Under the pieces are notes generated by a model. The model was not told where the DNA came from. It did no database searches and saw only the letters and a program-made list of their open reading frames with translations. Of a stretch of 32,292 bases of DNA, positions 15,463 through 26,795 are shown piece after piece. Position 1 is the stretch's first letter, and each line of letters begins with the position of its first letter. This DNA comes from an uncultured Clostridia bacterium (GTDB lineage Bacteria; Bacillota; Clostridia; Christensenellales; UBA1242), in contig CANQFL010000001.1 of assembly GCA_947598785.1 (NCBI GenBank), positions 76,563-108,854 on the forward strand, written 5' to 3'. The position numbers and the translations under genes were made by a program.

Positions 15463-16191
15463 ATGGCTGAAACTCTTAGGGCAATAAACATAAAATCCAT
15501 TGACAAAAAAGAGAAGGATAAAAATATTCTTCTTTTTTCTATTGAAGAAGGTAAAGAATGGGTCACTTTAAAAGGAGTAAAAAATCCTAATGCAAAGATG
15601 AAACTTGCTCAAAGTCCTTTTTGCTTTGGAGAATTTGTTATAGAAGAAGGGAAATTAGGAAAAATAGTTGTGGGGTTTGAAGCTATTGAAAGTTTTCATG
15701 AAATTTCTGAAGATGTAGATAAATATTTTGAGGGGACAGCAATATTGGAAATTTTAGATAAAATGGATTTTACTTCAACACAGGAGCGAGCAAGAGTGTT
15801 TTTACTTTCAATCAAAGCTCTTAAAAATATTTGTTTTAACAATATAAAGCCTTTGTATATATTAGATAAATTTCTTATTGAGATTTTAAATATTTGTGGA
15901 ACTCCACTATATACAGAAAAATGTTCTAATTGTGGGTCAAAAAGTTTTGATAAACTTTATATCAATTATGTAACAGGGGAACTTGTGTGCTCTGGGTGTA
16001 AAGATATATATTGCGAAGAATTTTCAAAAACTGTGTTTTCTGCGCTAAAAATATTAAATAATACAGAATTTGAAAAACTTTCCACAATAAAACTTGCAGA
16101 AAATAGTGAAAAAACGCTTTTAAATATATTAGTAAACAACTTTAAATCTAGGTTTGACGTATATTTAAAATTTTTAGGCATTTTATCATAA
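15463..16191 (+). CDS. recO: DNA repair protein RecO
   Basis: N-terminal OB-like region and Zn motif CSNCGSKSFDKLYINYVTGELVCSGC; follows the yqzL-like ORF. Confidence 0.88.
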   Translation: MAETLRAINIKSIDKKEKDKNILLFSIEEGKEWVTLKGVKNPNAKMKLAQSPFCFGEFVIEEGKLGKIVVGFEAIESFHEISEDVDKYFEGTAILEILDKMDFTSTQERARVFLLSIKALKNICFNNIKPLYILDKFLIEILNICGTPLYTEKCSNCGSKSFDKLYINYVTGELVCSGCKDIYCEEFSKTVFSALKILNNTEFEKLSTIKLAENSEKTLLNILVNNFKSRFDVYLKFLGILS

Positions 16192-17082: not shown

Positions 17083-17175
17083 CCTAAAAAATAATGACAA
17101 AAATTGACACAATTTATATTAAAAATAATGACTAAAACAAAATATATTTGGCAAAAATGACCTATGGAGGGGTTT

Positions 17176-17916
17176 ATGAAAACTTGGAATGAAATTGAAG
17201 TTAAATCATTATTTGAAGAAGTTGTAAGATGTAAGGGAGAAAAAGATGCCTTAAAATTGGCATTTAAAAACCATGCAGATAAGTTTGGAAGAAAACAAAA
17301 TAGCGTTAGGAATTATTATTATCATGAAGTTGATAATTTGAAAAATGACGATTTGCGTTGTAAACAACTCGGTATTGATTTGTCTGAACATATCAAAAAT
17401 CATTTTATTGCTTTTGATAAAGTTGGTGAAGAAAACTTATTTGAAGAAATCGACAAATTAACAAAAAGTGGAATGTCAGTTCGTTCTGCTTGTTTGAAAA
17501 TGAGCAACGGGGATTTAACATTAATGACCCGATATCAGAATAAATATCAAAACATGAAAAGAAAAATGATAACTCAGAACAATAATATTATTCCATTCAA
17601 ACAAAGAACATTAACTGAAAATGATATAAACAGTCTTTTTTTAGGGCTAGTTAAACTTATAAAAAAAACTGCCATGGAAGAGGCAATGAATGGACAAGAG
17701 AAACAAAATAGTTTGTTAAAAAAAGCATTTTCAGATTTAAGTAAAAAAGATAAACAAATTGAAGACTTAAAAATTCAATTTGAAAGTTTGAAAAAAGAAA
17801 ATTTATTGTTATTGAAACAGATAAAAGAAGATGTTGTAGATAAGAAAATGGCACTTAAAATGCATTTAGATAAAAATAAAGCAATAAAAAATGAAGAGGA
17901 TTCAAAAAGGGTTTGA
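17176..17916 (+). CDS. RsfA/Myb-like putative sporulation transcription factor
   Basis: WNEIEVKSLFEEVVRCKGEKDALKLAFKNHADKFGRKQNSVRNYYYHEV matches the RsfA-like SANT/Myb N-terminus, with a coiled-coil C-terminus. The start at 17176 has SD GGAGG, which lies inside the listed 17164 start. Confidence 0.7.
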   Translation: MKTWNEIEVKSLFEEVVRCKGEKDALKLAFKNHADKFGRKQNSVRNYYYHEVDNLKNDDLRCKQLGIDLSEHIKNHFIAFDKVGEENLFEEIDKLTKSGMSVRSACLKMSNGDLTLMTRYQNKYQNMKRKMITQNNNIIPFKQRTLTENDINSLFLGLVKLIKKTAMEEAMNGQEKQNSLLKKAFSDLSKKDKQIEDLKIQFESLKKENLLLLKQIKEDVVDKKMALKMHLDKNKAIKNEEDSKRV

Positions 17917-17947: not shown

Positions 17948-20900
17948 ATGAAAATAAAATTGATTTCTGGGGCAACTACCTTTGAAGCCGGAGTAAACAC
18001 AATAAAGAAAATTGATGTAAATAATTTGGAAATGGACAACATCGTTGTTGTTCCAGATAGTTTTTCAATGCAGGCAGAAAGTTTGATTTTTGATACGTTG
18101 GGAATAAAATCCACTTTTAATATTGAAGTTGTAGGAATATCAAGATTGGCAAGCAAAATTCTTCAAAGAGAGGGTATTGCTTATCAAAGAATAAGTGGTC
18201 TTGAAGAAGTTTTTACAATTTATAAAGCAGTAAAAGAATGTGAAGATAAATTTTTATATTTCAAAAAATGTAATGTAGATTTTTGTGCAAAGATACTTCA
18301 AATAATAAAACAATTTAAGTCTTGTAAAATAAAACCTAATTGGTTGAATAAAGTTGGAGATGAACTTTTAGACAACAAAATTCACGACTTGAAATTAATA
18401 TACGAAACTTATGAAAGACTTTTAGGAGATAAGTTAGATTTATCAAAATTTTTAGATTTTTTCATTGAAAATGTTAAAAATGGTATAGATTTATCTAAAA
18501 TTAACCTATTTTTTGTCAATTTTGATAGTTTTTCTTTAGAAATTAATTCTTTTATTTGTCAAATAGCTAATTTAGTAAACTCAATGTTTATAGGAATTTC
18601 AAAACCTGTATCATTGGGAAATGCTTTTATCTATGAAAATGATATTTATAACAAAACTAAACAATTAGCAGAAAAATTTTCAGTGACGATTGAAGAAGAA
18701 AAAAACTCAACAAATCTTTCTAAGGAACGTTTGGCTCTTATAAAAAATTTATATTCGTTTAAAATTGAACCTTATAATTCTGACTATTTTTTAAATGTTT
18801 TGGCTAAAAACAGGCAAGATGAAATTGAATATGTTGCGAAATATATAAAGTATGAAGTTGTAAATGGAGCAAGATTTAAAGATTTTGCTATTGCTGTTGC
18901 TGATAAAAAATATTTTGATGATTTAAAAGATATTTTTACATATTATGGAATTACAATTTATTGCGATGATGAAGTAAATCTTTCTCAAACTGTACTTGGA
19001 AGATTTTTATTAAAAACAATAGAAATTTCAAAGTTGGGATTTGATAAACAAAAATTAACTTATATAATTTCATCTCCTTTAATTTTAAATGAGAATGTAA
19101 AAGAAATAATAGAACAAATAGACTATTTTTGTATTGATGATGAGAATGAATTTTTAGAAAAATTTCCAAAGTATAACAATATAATTTCAAAAATTAAAGA
19201 TATTTCAAAATGTGTTACTTTAAATCAATATTGTGATTGTTTATCAGTTATTGTTTCATTAGTACATGATGGACATGAGAAACTGTTAAATGAGATGGAT
19301 AAAGAAACATTTTATAAAAAACAAAGTGAAAATAAGCAGGCAGAAGAACTTATTTTAATTTTATTAGACAAATTAAAAGCTTTAGGGCAAAATGAAAATA
19401 TGATTTTAACCGATTTTGAAAACTTGTTGTTATTTGCCTTGAAAAGTGTTAAGGTTGAAACAATACCTTCATATATAGATGCTGTTTATGTCGGTGACGT
19501 GACTGAAAGTTATTTTGACGATGTAAAAAATCTTTTTGTTTTAGGGGCAACAGCAAATTCTTTGCCTAAAAAGACAAATGATATTGGGATAATTGATGAT
19601 AGTGATATTGAAAAATTAAAATTAAACTTTAATTTAGAACCTGAAATAAAAGTACTTAACAGGAGAAATAGATTAAAACTTTTTGAAGTTTTGCAACACG
19701 CACGAGAAAAATTGATTGTAACTTTACCTATGAATGAAGATGGAAGACAATCTCAACGTGCAGATTTTCTTATAGATTTGATTGAAATATTTGGCAAAAA
19801 TATTATAAGAACCACAGCTCTTACAGATTTTAATATAGGTATTTTTGATGAAAATGAAACTTTAAGTAGAATTTTGATGGCTATTGGCTGTGAAAATAAT
19901 TTACTTGATTTTTATACAAAAAATAGGACAAGAATACCAAAGGAATTTGTTAGCACCATTAAAAGTGTGATAAAAAATGAAATTCCTATAATCGAAAAGA
20001 AAAATTATGTAAAAGGGAATATTTTAAATAAAAAGAAAATATCTGCATCTCAACTTGAGAATTATTTTGATTGTCCATTTAAGCATTTCATTAAATTTGG
20101 CTTATCAATTAATGAAAAACAAAATATTCAACCTAACAAAAGATTATTTGGAAATTTCCAACATGAACTTTTAAGAAAATTTGTAGATGTAAACAAGGAT
20201 TTAGGAAAATTTACAGATAAAGAAATTGAAAATTTTTTAAATGATAATTTAAATATTATTGCAAATAAAATTTATGATAAAAAAGTTTTACAAAAAAAAT
20301 CTTTTACTAAATATTTGCGTAATGAAGCCAAAATCATATTAAAAAAAGTTGTAAATGAACAAAAATTTAGTGAATTTAGGCCAAAATATTTAGAAAAATA
20401 TATTTTAGAAGATTTTATTGACGACATTAAGTTTGAAGGTAAAGCAGACCGTGTAGATTTTTGTGATAAATATTTTAGAATTATTGATTATAAGACAGGG
20501 CACAATGGTACTGTTCTTACAGATTTATATTATGGAACAAAATTACAACTTTTGCTCTATGCAGATTTTATGAAAAGAAAAACAGGACTAGATGTTGCAG
20601 GGGTATATTATTTTGATTGTCAAACTAAATATTCTAAAATTGGACAAAATGGGAAAACTTTGATTGGTTTAACTTTAAAAGACAATGAAATTGTGCAAAA
20701 ATCAGATAATAGACTTTGTAATCGTTCTTTTAAAAGTGATATTTTAGGAATGACAGGAAAAAATACTGACCAATCGGGATTCTCTTATCAATATGGTAAT
20801 CCTATAGAAAGTTTTGAAAAATATTTAAAATATGCTGAAGATGTTTCTACTTTAGCAATAAAAGAGATAAAAGAAGGATTTATAGAAGATAAACCTTTTA

Positions 20901-20992
20901 AAGGAAGCTGTGACCGATGTCCTTATGGTGCAATATGTCGTCATCAAAATGATTTTAGAATAGCGTATAAACAAAAGAAGGAAGAAAGTTAA
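17948..20992 (+). CDS. addB: ATP-dependent helicase/nuclease subunit B
   Basis: Large protein upstream of addA; KISASQLENYFDCPFKHFIKFGL, FEGKADRVDFCDKYFRIIDYKTG nuclease motif, CDRCPYGAICRH Fe-S cysteines. Confidence 0.93.
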   Translation: MKIKLISGATTFEAGVNTIKKIDVNNLEMDNIVVVPDSFSMQAESLIFDTLGIKSTFNIEVVGISRLASKILQREGIAYQRISGLEEVFTIYKAVKECEDKFLYFKKCNVDFCAKILQIIKQFKSCKIKPNWLNKVGDELLDNKIHDLKLIYETYERLLGDKLDLSKFLDFFIENVKNGIDLSKINLFFVNFDSFSLEINSFICQIANLVNSMFIGISKPVSLGNAFIYENDIYNKTKQLAEKFSVTIEEEKNSTNLSKERLALIKNLYSFKIEPYNSDYFLNVLAKNRQDEIEYVAKYIKYEVVNGARFKDFAIAVADKKYFDDLKDIFTYYGITIYCDDEVNLSQTVLGRFLLKTIEISKLGFDKQKLTYIISSPLILNENVKEIIEQIDYFCIDDENEFLEKFPKYNNIISKIKDISKCVTLNQYCDCLSVIVSLVHDGHEKLLNEMDKETFYKKQSENKQAEELILILLDKLKALGQNENMILTDFENLLLFALKSVKVETIPSYIDAVYVGDVTESYFDDVKNLFVLGATANSLPKKTNDIGIIDDSDIEKLKLNFNLEPEIKVLNRRNRLKLFEVLQHAREKLIVTLPMNEDGRQSQRADFLIDLIEIFGKNIIRTTALTDFNIGIFDENETLSRILMAIGCENNLLDFYTKNRTRIPKEFVSTIKSVIKNEIPIIEKKNYVKGNILNKKKISASQLENYFDCPFKHFIKFGLSINEKQNIQPNKRLFGNFQHELLRKFVDVNKDLGKFTDKEIENFLNDNLNIIANKIYDKKVLQKKSFTKYLRNEAKIILKKVVNEQKFSEFRPKYLEKYILEDFIDDIKFEGKADRVDFCDKYFRIIDYKTGHNGTVLTDLYYGTKLQLLLYADFMKRKTGLDVAGVYYFDCQTKYSKIGQNGKTLIGLTLKDNEIVQKSDNRLCNRSFKSDILGMTGKNTDQSGFSYQYGNPIESFEKYLKYAEDVSTLAIKEIKEGFIEDKPFKGSCDRCPYGAICRHQNDFRIAYKQKKEES

Positions 20993-23900
20993 GTGAAAAA
21001 GAAAGAAATTCCAGAGCAAGATTTAGTGCTTAAAAACAATAAAAAAAGAATGTTGGTCAGTGCTTCAGCAGGCAGTGGTAAAACTTTTGTTATGATTGAA
21101 TATATTTGTAATCTAATTTGCGAAAAATTTATTCCGGTTAAAGATTTATTGGTTTTAACTTTTACTAAATCTGCAGCTATTGAGATGAAAGAAAGATTGC
21201 AAAAAAGACTAAAAAGTAAAGGCGAAAGTGAGTTTATTACACAACAACTTGATGATTTATCTACTGCAAATATTTGTACCATTGATTCTTTTTGTGAAAA
21301 ATACATAAAAAAATATGCAAATTTATTAAATTTGTATGAAAATTTTGAAATTGTTGATGAAAATATGGACAAAAAACTTAAACAAACTTCTTTTGAGAAA
21401 GCAATTAAGTTTTTTGAACAAAATTATTTGGAAGATTATGAAGATTTAATGTTCTTTTATAAAGAGGATAAAGAAAGAATAAAGAATATTATTTTTACTA
21501 TTGAAAATTTAGTTTCTTCGGTTGTAGATAAAGATGATTTTCTTGAGAGAAATATAGAAAATCCAGAAATATTTTTTGAAGAAGCAATAGTTTTTTTAGT
21601 AAATGATACTAAGAGAAAGGTTAAATTAAATTTAGACAAAATAAAATATTTTCACTTGAATGAATTAGATTGTGATTTAGAAATTTGTTTCAAAAGCTTT
21701 TTTGAAAGCCAAAATATTTATGAAATTCTAAAATTTAAAGAAAACTTGAAGTGGCCATCTTTTCCAACAAAAAAAATAGTTGGAGAAGAAGTTGCAAAAT
21801 CTATAAGAGTTTTGAAAGAGAATATAAATAATGTTTTTAAGAAATTAGAAGATTTAAAACTTGAAAATGAAGAAAATATAAGTTTTCAAAAATCTGGCAA
21901 ATTAGAAAAAATAATAATTAATTTATATAAAGTTTATGAAAAAGAAGAAATTGAATACAAAAAGTTAAAAAATTTTTTAAATTTCAATGATTTAGAAAGA
22001 TATATGAATTTTCTATCTAAACAAGAAAATCTTTTTTCAAATTTTAAATATGTTTTTATTGATGAATATCAAGATACAAACAAAATTCAAGAAAGGACAA
22101 TTAAAAATGTTGCCAAAAACTGTAACTTTGTTGCAGTAGGAGATGTTAAACAAGGTATTTACGGCTTTAGATTGGCCAGTGCTGAAATATTTTTAAAAGA
22201 TATGAAAGATTTTGAAGAAGATGACAACTCTTCATTAAATATCTTAAAAAGTAATTTCAGAAGCCAACAAAGCATTTTAGATTTTGTAAATGATATTTTT
22301 AAAGTTTGTATGACTAAAGAAACTGCAGAAATTGATTATACAAAATCTATGCTTGTAGCAGAAGGTGATTTCGTTTCAGATAACAAAAAGGCCATAAATA
22401 TTGACATAATAGAAAAAGATGTTATTGAAGAGGAAGAAAAACCTTTAATTTATAGTGTGAAGAATGCTAAATATGCAAATATTGATTTTTATATAAAAGA
22501 AATCAAAGATATAAAAAGAAGAATTTTTGAAGTTATGACATCTCAGATTAGTGAAGACGAAGCTTTAAGACCATGTAGGTTTGGCGATATAGCCATTCTT
22601 TCAAGGAGTAGAAATATTTTATATCAACAACTTGAACTCTATTTACAGGAATGTGGCATACCTATAGTATCTAATACAAAGAACAAACTAACTGAAGAAC
22701 CTGAAATTAAAGTGTTGTTATGTTATCTAAAATTAGCTTTAAATTTTGATGATGAAATTTCTTTATTGAGTGTTTTGTTGTCTGGAATGTATAGATTTGA
22801 TATAGAAGAAATATGGAAATTAAAACAAGGTAAAACATTGATGGATTTGGTTGTATCAAACGAAAAATTTTCTTCTGTTATAAGTGATTTAACTCAATTT
22901 CGTTTTGAATCAAATGTTATTGGAATTAAAAAGGCTTTTGTTAATTTGTTTAACAAAACGGGATATCGTGCATATCTAAATCTTAAGCCTAATCAAAATA
23001 GACTTAATCTTTTTGTAGATAAATTTTTGGAGCAAATATCTATTTCTGAGTTTCAATACGATTTGTCTGGATTAATAAACTTTTTTGAAAGTGTGGAAAT
23101 TAATGTAACTGGACAAGTTTCAGTTGTAGAAGATGCAATAACTTTAACAACTATACATGATAGCAAAGGACTTGAATATCCAATTGTCTTTTTAATAGGT
23201 TGCGATTTGAGCTTGTCAGGTGGTTGGCCTAATTATGATGTTGAAATTAATGAAAAATTTGGCTTGGCATTAAAATATTTTGATAGAGAAAATAATAAAG
23301 AAACAATTTCTGCAAAGATGAAAGCAATAAAGGATAGTAAAGTTATTAAAGAATTTGCAGAAGAATTAAACTTATTTTATGTAGCCTTGACAAGAGCTAA
23401 AAATAGATTATATCTGTTCGGATTGTATAATGAAGATAATTTCAATAAACTTAATATTTACGATTGTGATAGTTATTTTGATTTAATATTTTTTGCCTTG
23501 AAAAAAGAAAGAGAATCTTTCATTTTAAACAAACATTTTATAAATGAAGATAGGGAAATATGCTTTATTGAAGATGTTATTGAAGACAAAATTGAAAATA
23601 TACAAGACTTAGATAATACAAAAATAAACGAAAAAGCTTATAAAAAAATTGTAAATTATCTCGATTATTCTTATAAATACAGCGATAATCTAAATTTTAA
23701 GTTAAAAGAAAGCGTTACAGAACTTTCAAGAAAAAATCAAGAGGATTTATTGTTAAAATATAATAATGACAACTTTATTTTTAGTGGAAAAAGTGTAGAA
23801 ATAGGAAATGCTTACCATTTGGCATTAAAACTTGTTGATTTTAATTTAATCTATGATATAAACGATTTGAAAGAGTTTTTAAAAAAGAATGATAATATTA

Positions 23901-24274
23901 TAGATGTATCTTTATTAGATATTAATATATTATATAAAAATATAATGCTGTTAAAAAATATTTCTCAAGATGGTAAAGTCTATAGGGAAAAAGAGTTTAT
24001 TATGAAAGAGAAAATTAAAAACCTAATAGAAAACCAAGATTTTGATGATGAAATAATGGTACAGGGGGCAATTGATTTATTTATAGAAAAAAAAGATAAA
24101 ATCATATTAGTGGATTATAAATATTCAAGCTTAGATGCTCAATCTTTAGTAAAAAAATATAAAGAACAACTTAGACTTTATAAATTGGCTTTAGAAGAAT
24201 TTTTTAAGAAAAAAATTGATAATATTTATCTTCTATCTTTAAAAAATGCATCATTAATTAAAGTGAATATTTAA
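20993..24274 (+). CDS. addA: ATP-dependent helicase/nuclease subunit A
   Basis: GTG start; VSASAGSGKTFVMIEYI Walker A, VFIDEYQDTNKIQ, ISTIHDSKGLEYPIVFL-like motif (TTIHDSKGLEYPIVFLIG), FYVALTRAKNRLYLFG, ILVDYKYSS nuclease. Confidence 0.96.
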   Translation: MKKKEIPEQDLVLKNNKKRMLVSASAGSGKTFVMIEYICNLICEKFIPVKDLLVLTFTKSAAIEMKERLQKRLKSKGESEFITQQLDDLSTANICTIDSFCEKYIKKYANLLNLYENFEIVDENMDKKLKQTSFEKAIKFFEQNYLEDYEDLMFFYKEDKERIKNIIFTIENLVSSVVDKDDFLERNIENPEIFFEEAIVFLVNDTKRKVKLNLDKIKYFHLNELDCDLEICFKSFFESQNIYEILKFKENLKWPSFPTKKIVGEEVAKSIRVLKENINNVFKKLEDLKLENEENISFQKSGKLEKIIINLYKVYEKEEIEYKKLKNFLNFNDLERYMNFLSKQENLFSNFKYVFIDEYQDTNKIQERTIKNVAKNCNFVAVGDVKQGIYGFRLASAEIFLKDMKDFEEDDNSSLNILKSNFRSQQSILDFVNDIFKVCMTKETAEIDYTKSMLVAEGDFVSDNKKAINIDIIEKDVIEEEEKPLIYSVKNAKYANIDFYIKEIKDIKRRIFEVMTSQISEDEALRPCRFGDIAILSRSRNILYQQLELYLQECGIPIVSNTKNKLTEEPEIKVLLCYLKLALNFDDEISLLSVLLSGMYRFDIEEIWKLKQGKTLMDLVVSNEKFSSVISDLTQFRFESNVIGIKKAFVNLFNKTGYRAYLNLKPNQNRLNLFVDKFLEQISISEFQYDLSGLINFFESVEINVTGQVSVVEDAITLTTIHDSKGLEYPIVFLIGCDLSLSGGWPNYDVEINEKFGLALKYFDRENNKETISAKMKAIKDSKVIKEFAEELNLFYVALTRAKNRLYLFGLYNEDNFNKLNIYDCDSYFDLIFFALKKERESFILNKHFINEDREICFIEDVIEDKIENIQDLDNTKINEKAYKKIVNYLDYSYKYSDNLNFKLKESVTELSRKNQEDLLLKYNNDNFIFSGKSVEIGNAYHLALKLVDFNLIYDINDLKEFLKKNDNIIDVSLLDINILYKNIMLLKNISQDGKVYREKEFIMKEKIKNLIENQDFDDEIMVQGAIDLFIEKKDKIILVDYKYSSLDAQSLVKKYKEQLRLYKLALEEFFKKKIDNIYLLSLKNASLIKVNI

Positions 24275-24455
24275 AATGTTTATTTATGCTTAAATAAATG
24301 ACTTTTCCGTTATTTTTATTACAATTTTTTATTGAATTTTTTGCGATTTTTTTTAATTTAATAAAATTATTAAAAAAATATTTAAAAATTATTGAAAATT
24401 ATTAGTAAATATTTTATTAGTTGTGTTATACTAAGTTTAGCTTAAGGAGGTTTCT

Positions 24456-26795
24456 ATGGGTAATATCTTAGAAAGCATAACAAATGGACTCGCTAGTTTC
24501 ATCAATTTAATTGGAATTGATGTTTTATTCATAATTTCACTTGCAGTCGAAGTTTTGATTGTGCTTTTCTTTTTGTTAAAATCTATTTTTTCTTATGAAG
24601 CAAAATTAAACAGAGCCTTTGAAAGATTGAATTATTGGCTTTTTGAAAAAAAAGTTGTTTCTGAAGAAAATATAAAAGACCTTAACCTCTTATTTAAAAC
24701 TAAAGCTCCTAAGAGAATGTGCTATTATTGGCAACAATACATACTTTTCAGAGAAGGAACTCCATCTTCTTACTTATCTACTGAAAACCTTATTGAAAAA
24801 CCTCTTAAAACAAGTTCCTACGCATCTAATATAAAAAATTTAAGCCTTTTTACTTTGGTTTGGGCGTTAATTGTATCAATGCTTATGGTTGTCGGAAACA
24901 ATTATGAGAACTTTTTAACTGGTAAAACAACCATAATTGCACTTTTGTGTCCTATCTTTGTCGTTTTACTTGGCACAATTTTTATGGTTTATTTACGTTT
25001 CAGAAAAAATTCTACATTAAATTCACTTTATCAAAATGTTTCACTATTTGGAAGATTTATGGATAATGCTTGTCTTGACCTTCCTTCATACATTGATTAT
25101 CAAATCCTTTTCACTCCTCAAGAAATTGAAAATGGTCAACCTGTTCTTCGTGAATTCTTGGACTATAAGGCTAGAAAAGAAAAAGAAGAATTTAATAAAG
25201 CAAAACAAGAAGAATATGGACATGAAGAATTTGATTTTTCTGCTACAGGCGTAGATGGTTCTATGGTGCTTGACAGAGCTATGAAAGAAAGTGAAATATT
25301 CTTGAAAAAGAAAGAGAAAATTTTGCTTCAAATTTCTCAGTTGGAAGCAAGTCTTGATGCAAGAAGAAAGAATTTTGATAATGTTCAAAAAGATTATCAG
25401 ACCAAAATTCAAGCTTCAAAAGAAAATGTTGAAAGATTAAGAGTAATGCAGGAAGAAACAACAAACAGAATTGAAAGCAATTATTATAGAAAACAACAAA
25501 CTCAAGAAATTGGCAAACAAGAACAAATGGAACAAGAGTTTGAACAACAAAGAGCAAAATATCTTCTTGAAAAAAATGAAGGTGAAGAAGAAATCGGAAA
25601 ACTTAATGCAGAACTTGAAAATAACAAGTCAAATGTAGAAGAAGCAATGTTAAGTGAATACAAAACATTCTTTAATAAGTTTTGTATAAGTGCTCAAAAA
25701 GTTGTAGGACAAGTTTTTGATGAAAGAATAAAATCCTTAAAAAGTGAAAATGATGCTTTAAAGGATAGAATAAATGAATTACAAGTTAAATTAAAAGATG
25801 TCCCACAAGGTGTTTATGATGGCAGTTTAAATGATGAAAATCCACAACAACAAGATGGTTCTTATGATGAAAATGGAAATTATGTTTTTGCTAATGGTAC
25901 ATTCTATGATAAAGAAGGTAATTTCCATGATGAAAAAGGCGATGTATATTCTCAAGATGGAAAACTTTTAATTAAAGCACCAATCACAAGCAAAGAAAAA
26001 CAAACAATTAATTTTGATGATTTTGATTCTTTTGATTTTATGACAGATGTTTCTCAAAAAGGTGACATATATGGCGTAGCTGAAAATATTGTTAATAATA
26101 TTGATAAAGGTGAATCAATCGATATAATTAATAATTTTGAAAGAAAAGACCCTATTGAAATTAGAGAAGAAAGTAAAGAGCAAAAAGAAGTTAAAGAAGA
26201 AATTGAAGAAGAAAAACCTGAGATTAAACTTTCAAATGTAACATTAGATGACTTGAACAATGAAGTTGTTGAAGAAGATAATGAACCTCCTGTAACTGAG
26301 CCAAAAATTGAAGAAGTTCCAGAAAAGCCAAAGAAAAAAGTAGGAAGACCAAGAAAAATAGTTGAGTCAAACGTTGTTAAATCATCTAGAAAACGAGGCA
26401 GACCAAGAAAGGAACACATTGAAACATTACCAAAACGTAGTGTTGGTCGTCCTAGAAAAATCGTTGAAAATACAACAGTGACTCCAAAGAGAGGAAGGGG
26501 ACGTCCTAGAAAAAACGAAGCTATTAACGATATTAATAAAAGATTGTTTGAAGAACAAGAAAGATTAAATGAAGCAAGAAAAGCTTTAAATCAAGACGTT
26601 CAAAATGCTGTAAGCGAACTAAACACAAATGTTGATGATAAACAAGCAAGAAGAGAAGAACTTATAAAAGAAATTGAGAATCTTCAAAAAGAAGCCCAAT
26701 TAGTTATTGAAAGAAATCAATCAGAAAATAGGATTGAAGAAATAAATAGAAAATTAGAACAAGTTCTTGCTGAAATAAAAAATCTTAATCCATAA
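24456..26795 (+). CDS. Membrane-anchored coiled-coil protein with four C-terminal AT-hook motifs
   Basis: N-terminal TMs (VLFIISLAVEVLIVLFFLLK; LFTLVWALIVSMLMVV; TIIALLCPIFVVLLGTIFMVYL), long coiled coil, acidic linker, VGRPRKIV/RGRPRKEH/VGRPRKIV/RGRPRKNE, then a terminal coiled coil; SD AAGGAGG. Confidence 0.85.
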   Translation: MGNILESITNGLASFINLIGIDVLFIISLAVEVLIVLFFLLKSIFSYEAKLNRAFERLNYWLFEKKVVSEENIKDLNLLFKTKAPKRMCYYWQQYILFREGTPSSYLSTENLIEKPLKTSSYASNIKNLSLFTLVWALIVSMLMVVGNNYENFLTGKTTIIALLCPIFVVLLGTIFMVYLRFRKNSTLNSLYQNVSLFGRFMDNACLDLPSYIDYQILFTPQEIENGQPVLREFLDYKARKEKEEFNKAKQEEYGHEEFDFSATGVDGSMVLDRAMKESEIFLKKKEKILLQISQLEASLDARRKNFDNVQKDYQTKIQASKENVERLRVMQEETTNRIESNYYRKQQTQEIGKQEQMEQEFEQQRAKYLLEKNEGEEEIGKLNAELENNKSNVEEAMLSEYKTFFNKFCISAQKVVGQVFDERIKSLKSENDALKDRINELQVKLKDVPQGVYDGSLNDENPQQQDGSYDENGNYVFANGTFYDKEGNFHDEKGDVYSQDGKLLIKAPITSKEKQTINFDDFDSFDFMTDVSQKGDIYGVAENIVNNIDKGESIDIINNFERKDPIEIREESKEQKEVKEEIEEEKPEIKLSNVTLDDLNNEVVEEDNEPPVTEPKIEEVPEKPKKKVGRPRKIVESNVVKSSRKRGRPRKEHIETLPKRSVGRPRKIVENTTVTPKRGRGRPRKNEAINDINKRLFEEQERLNEARKALNQDVQNAVSELNTNVDDKQARREELIKEIENLQKEAQLVIERNQSENRIEEINRKLEQVLAEIKNLNP
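26338..26513 (+). repeat. Four AT-hook (GRPRK) coding repeats within the 24456-26795 gene
   Basis: GRPRK encoded four times, about 17 codons apart, flanked by K/R/P residues. Confidence 0.85.

Follow-up and report, generated by a model that had tools for sequence, protein, structure and literature searches.

Attachment of DNA to the envelope is an old question in bacteria, and to our knowledge few proteins dedicated to it are known. Membrane-DNA tethering is already described as a functional class. Noc of Bacillus subtilis binds DNA and membrane at once and brings DNA to the membrane (PMC4331003). The plastid proteins PEND and MFP1 are membrane-associated and proposed nucleoid anchors, MFP1 being described as a coiled-coil protein (PMC4154389). 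The AT-hook, defined by a GRP core flanked by basic residues (PMC11354804), occurs in the bacterial proteins CarD of Myxococcus and WhiB7 of Mycobacterium (PMC4374960, PMC10432532), which are soluble transcription regulators and are not known to be membrane proteins. AlgP and PhaF of Pseudomonas carry lysine-rich, histone H1-like tails and are proposed granule-nucleoid tethers (PMC9239181). ZorA of the Zorya system belongs to the MotA/TolQ/ExbB superfamily and combines TM1, a long cytoplasmic loop, a TM2-TM3 hairpin and a long cytoplasmic helical tail. Within the ZorAB complex it is a pentamer (PMC11890865).

The protein analysed here shares features with each of these systems. It has the architecture of ZorA, which is both its best structural and its best profile match; unlike ZorA, it has no detected ZorB, ExbD or MotB partner and no canonical TM2 glycine motif, its tail ends in AT-hooks, and its chromosomal site is fixed after addA. 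As we propose for it, Noc links DNA to membrane; however, Noc, a ParB-like protein, attaches through a weak amphipathic helix and recognizes specific sites, whereas the hook protein has predicted integral TM helices and hooks that would bind non-specifically. PEND and MFP1 are eukaryotic and have other DNA-binding domains (bZIP in PEND), and are likened to it by description only. The H1-like tails of AlgP and PhaF resemble those of its hookless relatives, except that granules, not the envelope, are tethered. No bacterial membrane protein with AT-hooks was found in the literature searched, nor was the combination that we consider new, a ZorA/TolQ-type base carrying AT-hooks and linked to addAB. 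If this assignment is true, the MotA/TolQ/ZorA fold extends to a non-motor, DNA-anchoring use.

The gene and its surroundings are laid out as follows in the window, i.e. the whole stretch of 32,292 nucleotides that was analysed.

17948..20992, + strand: addB (Pfam and NCBIfam best hits)
20993..24274, + strand: addA, the conserved upstream neighbour (Pfam and NCBIfam best hits)
24427..24432, + strand: possible extended -10 (TGTGT TATACT), a candidate own promoter read from the sequence
24444..24450, + strand: ribosome-binding site AAGGAGG, read from the sequence
24456..26795, + strand: the gene, an ORF of 779 aa
24516..24587, + strand: TM1, aa 21-44, N-terminus predicted outside (hydropathy and charge over 53 homologues; model helix 21-44)
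24588..24830, + strand: cytoplasmic loop 1, aa 45-125, highly conserved (mean of 13.5 K+R against 8.3 D+E; invariant columns)
24831..24896, + strand: TM2, aa 126-147 (model; hydropathy and charge)
24927..24995, + strand: TM3, aa 158-180 (model; hydropathy and charge)
25260..25799, + strand: long helical rod, aa 269-448 (pLDDT mostly about 80-95; heptad signal weak)
25857..25973, + strand: aromatic/Gly short beta motif YDENGNY..G..Y, aa 468-506 (structure model)
25980..26324, + strand: acidic linker, predicted disordered, aa 509-623, net charge -22 (pLDDT; charge)
26343..26357, + strand: AT-hook core 1, GRPRK, aa 630-634 (sequence, Pfam, conservation)
26397..26411, + strand: AT-hook core 2, GRPRK, aa 648-652 (same evidence)
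26445..26459, + strand: AT-hook core 3, GRPRK, aa 664-668 (same evidence)
26499..26513, + strand: AT-hook core 4, GRPRK, aa 682-686 (same evidence)
26523..26786, + strand: C-terminal coiled-coil hairpin, aa 690-777 (model helices 690-752 and 757-777; periodicity)

The ORF is exact, with an ATG at 24456 and a stop codon ending at 26795. It is separated from addA by an AT-rich gap of 181 bp. The possible extended -10, which is missing from the consensus-scan list, and the AAGGAGG site lie 5' of the gene, so that it may have its own promoter. The first-pass annotation had described a 779-aa protein with TM segments, an acidic disordered linker and four GRPRK cores, and this description is confirmed by the ORF, the predicted helices, pLDDT and Pfam. 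In the full-length model pLDDT is below 50 almost throughout residues 509-687, and the linker and hooks are therefore predicted to be disordered. The coiled coil placed after the hooks is borne out by a clear periodicity of 3.5-3.6 residues over 690-777 (shuffles 0.002 or fewer). The long coiled coil placed before them stands as a confident long helix at 269-448, but its heptad periodicity is weak (p 0.036 for 269-334; not significant for the whole of 269-448 in the shuffle test). SMC-like NCBIfam matches of the protein were taken as coiled-coil noise. The aromatic/Gly mini-repeat (YDENGNYV..NG.YYD..GN) is predicted to form short beta hairpins in 1-4 copies and recurs in loci L108, L115, L099 and L090; by eye it is like OCRE or choline-binding repeats, and no Pfam family matched it.

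The four cores, at aa 630, 648, 664 and 682, are spaced by 18, 16 and 18 aa, in agreement with the even spacing previously noted. Each GRP core has basic flanks, and Pfam AT_hook (PF02178) scores the protein at 28.3 bits, above the cut-off of 17.4. Since none of 20,000 shuffles of the protein contained two or more GRP[RK]K, chance from composition is excluded for four hooks. The codons differ among the hooks, which argues against a recent DNA duplication. A genome-wide Pfam search of the assembly (1.22 Mb, about 70% complete) returned these four AT-hooks only.

Where these hooks lie relative to the membrane depends on the N-terminal domain. Over 53 diverse homologues the mean K+R count is 0.8 for the N-terminus, 13.5 for loop 1 and 0.2 for loop 2. 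The positive-inside rule would thus place loop 1 and the whole chain beyond TM3 in the cytoplasm, and the hooks would face the chromosome. The cytoplasmic C-terminus previously assumed agrees with this charge pattern, which does not place the AT-hook region outside the cell. Alignment columns of loop 1 contain the invariant residues E48, N59, P85, W92 and R99, and TM3 runs on into the cytoplasm as part of a single helix, 156-205.

The fold of this membrane part, which the earlier reading overlooked, was modelled with AlphaFold over residues 1-260 on 53 homologues (pLDDT 92, pTM 0.80). Foldseek against the PDB returned ZorA first (E 0.003, probability 1.00, TM about 0.5); nearly all of the top 50 matches were ZorA, TolQ, ExbB and MotA chains, and the full-length model gave the same best matches. 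The sequence profile of the 53-homologue alignment likewise found four ZorA sequences first in the PDB (E 0.005-0.08), collinear across TM1-TM3. The domain has the fold and topology of the ZorA/MotA/TolQ/ExbB class, with an N-out TM1, a cytoplasmic loop and TM2-TM3. Pfam MotA_ExbB did not match it, and hhalign gave no significant similarity between A3 and five clostridial MotA_ExbB sequences (A4), so that homology to ZorA is argued from the profile and structure matches to ZorA. Order-level relatives were weakly positive in hhalign with MotA_ExbB members (73.7%). Judged from model and sequence, the N-domain is likely a distant relative of ZorA/TolQ/ExbB, and the relationship is remote. Other Pfam matches of the domain (Tetraspanin, DUF2207_C and so on) were scattered, weak and mutually inconsistent, and were rejected. 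In another family of the order, four loci (L155, L156, L158, L160) encode MotA_ExbB proteins that score weakly, yet above the cut-off, and have long helical tails.

We propose, with a probability of roughly 0.6, that the protein is a membrane-anchored DNA tether composed of a ZorA-like base and a long disordered arm. The base, a 3-TM domain of the ZorA/TolQ/ExbB type, would be embedded in the cytoplasmic membrane, the N-terminus facing the outside, and, by analogy with ZorA, would probably be oligomeric. The C-terminal part would enter the cytoplasm as a long helical rod followed by a flexible arm of about 180 residues and a short coiled coil, the arm being predicted to reach into the nucleoid with its acidic stretch first and the AT-hooks after. 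Several weak minor-groove contacts per arm, multiplied by oligomerisation, could then hold AT-containing DNA near the membrane with low sequence specificity. The computed basis of the tether is the fold class, the charge-based topology, the disorder, the hook conservation and the basic replacement tails; from these we infer DNA binding, oligomerisation and a biological purpose. The chromosome-to-membrane tether suggested by the first-pass annotation thus keeps its cytoplasmic, membrane-tethered tail, well supported by prediction, together with a presumed DNA binding, and loses the parts that concerned AT-richness and sporulation. Nucleoid positioning or occlusion would be the simplest purpose; a second, also plausible, would be membrane-based repair in which DNA is kept close to AddAB. 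The protein is in any case a conserved and directly testable candidate for envelope attachment of DNA.

This bacterial protein is widespread and yet undescribed. The protein was found in 34 of 37 genomes of the genus. Across the taxonomic family, N-domain profile matches occur in 152 of 198 sampled genomes and 35 of 42 genera; the profile misses some members, such as the G346 copy, which adjoins addA and has 410 aa and one hook. Four further families of the order (f3, f9, f10, f19) have a hookless relative of about 300-700 aa directly after addA, and profile-profile similarity to these order-level relatives is strong (99.3%, E 7e-21). Since hooks are missing from the order-level relatives outside the family, they probably had no part in the ancestral function. 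The gene has been lost in G003, G008, G012 and G158, indicating that the protein is not essential. On a more tentative level, an addA-linked ZorA/TolQ-type protein present across the order might have lost a motor role and become a chromosome anchor, to which one family added a long arm of interchangeable DNA-binding chemistry (AT-hooks or H1-like tails), so that the nucleoid or a repair site would be tethered to the envelope in a way not seen in described systems.

The position just downstream of addAB, also reported previously, was verified; Pfam and NCBIfam best hits support both genes as AddAB, at scores below the NCBIfam equivalog cut-offs. This linkage raises an alternative, a repair platform at the membrane, where DNA that is broken or being replicated would be held for the AddAB helicase-nuclease. 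In its favour, 38 of 39 distinct genus loci have addA as the gene immediately upstream, as do most other genera and each of the nine loci sampled from four other families of the order. Among the sampled loci with linkage, the gene follows addA by 57-748 bp; just upstream in L045, the one exception within the genus, and in L100, addA was looked for and not found. Moreover, recO is nearby, and of the 9 genomes among the 198 of the family in which addA is absent (E 1e-15), 8 also lack the protein; G003 and G012, from outside this sample, lack both. Against it, three hook-bearing genera (g30, g147, g151) keep the hooks with the gene apart from addA, which leaves coupling to repair unproven. The ninth addA-less genome, G498, keeps the gene and belongs to the unlinked genus g30; co-loss is thus most simply a physical deletion of linked genes, and we rejected it as proof of functional coupling. 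In addition, G008 has addA with a different downstream gene in place of the protein, and the 181-bp gap and the possible promoter speak against obligate co-transcription. On balance we regard a repair platform as unlikely. Several observations were made around this site. In G008 (L137:2233-2877) addA is followed, in the place of the hook gene, by a 215-aa exonuclease-like ORF, DnaQ-type by eye. In the window recO occupies 15463-16191, upstream of addBA, so that recO, addB, addA and the hook gene fall within about 11 kb; a 250-aa ORF before addB (17164-17916) looks Myb/RsfA-like and DNA-binding by eye, with no Pfam or NCBIfam match.

All 39 distinct complete genus homologues have 2-10 GRP cores; the apparently hookless L029 was a locus cut short, and its full 1298-aa ORF contains two hooks. 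Across the family RK or KK follows the GRP core in 269 of 284 cores, and the G, R and P columns score about 0.85-1.0 compared to 0.25-0.3 in the adjoining linker. The hooks are therefore near-invariant within a fast-changing linker. At least two hooks are present in ten genera (g1, g29, g30, g31, g135, g141, g146, g147, g151, g155). Mapped on a tree of the N-domains of the long forms, the presence of hooks requires two changes, or one in 61% of bootstrap trees: hooks were gained one or two times across the family. Fewer than two hooks were seen in 19 sampled genera, and in 13 of these the tail contains a 40-residue window with a net charge of +10 or more; by comparison, P0001 reaches +13 and other window ORFs of at least 200 aa reach +4 to +9. 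Many of these tails are K/A/S/T-rich like histone H1 (e.g. L103, L102, L115), and g27 has RGRKP. The expected basic replacement in hookless homologues was thus seen in most of them, but in g28 and g138 the membrane and rod parts are retained while hooks and a strongly basic tail are both absent. Read from the sequences, this pattern points to selection for a basic arm that binds nucleic acids and can vary in composition, and the exchange of hooks for H1-like tails on one base suggests that non-specific DNA gripping, not a specific site, is what selection keeps. The proposed link to AT-rich genomes is unsupported, since the number of hooks is uncorrelated with GC content (Spearman rho 0.11, p 0.35), and we discarded AT-richness as the driver of an anchoring role. 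In g27 (L086, L087, L124) the linker before the RGRKP patch contains Tyr/Gln/Asn-rich prion-like repeats such as NYNQGYYDP.

Such basic disordered tails are promiscuous, and the arm might bind RNA, ribosomes, polyphosphate or another polyanion instead of DNA; the H1-like AlgP tail of Pseudomonas has been connected with both DNA and polyP granules (PMC9239181). The hook-bearing genera, however, keep the GRP core with basic flanks, the AT-hook signature (PMC11354804), over a generic basic run. Polyphosphate itself is disfavoured, as a PPK1-type polyphosphate kinase (PF02503) was found in none of 23 genus genomes. We therefore consider a polyanion other than DNA rather improbable as the target.

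The ZorA-like fold and the long cytoplasmic tail would also suit an active motor driven by ions, as in ZorAB or TolQR, whose partner has escaped recognition. The ExbD (PF02472) and MotB_plug (PF13677) domains of such partners were detected in none of the 23 genus genomes searched, which makes a motor of the known types unlikely, and the canonical glycine-rich motif of TM2 (LGILGTFxGL in A4) is not in A3. There is accordingly only a slim likelihood of a motor. Slimmer still is that of a Zorya-type anti-phage system with AddAB as effector. The closest fold is ZorA, ZorAB brings DNA effectors to the membrane (PMC11890865), and a few family members match the PADLOC ZorA models weakly (E about 0.002-0.005). 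Yet no ZorB-type domain was found, and the neighbours of the gene are addAB and housekeeping genes, with no MotB_plug, in place of the ZorA, ZorB and effector set of Zorya. Furthermore, the protein is present in almost every member of the genus, at a single conserved position on the chromosome, whereas defence islands are patchy.

Sporulation-only action, with DNA tethered at the septum or forespore, deserves hardly any credence: Spo0A is present in the window genome and in 33 of 37 genus genomes, but G006 (95% complete), G017 and G032 (98% complete) have the protein with no Spo0A detected and G003 and G008 the reverse, on which ground the sporulation specificity raised earlier was rejected. 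The genus genomes (G000-G036) are about 1 Mb, and that Spo0A is mostly kept in them is unexpected at such a small size.
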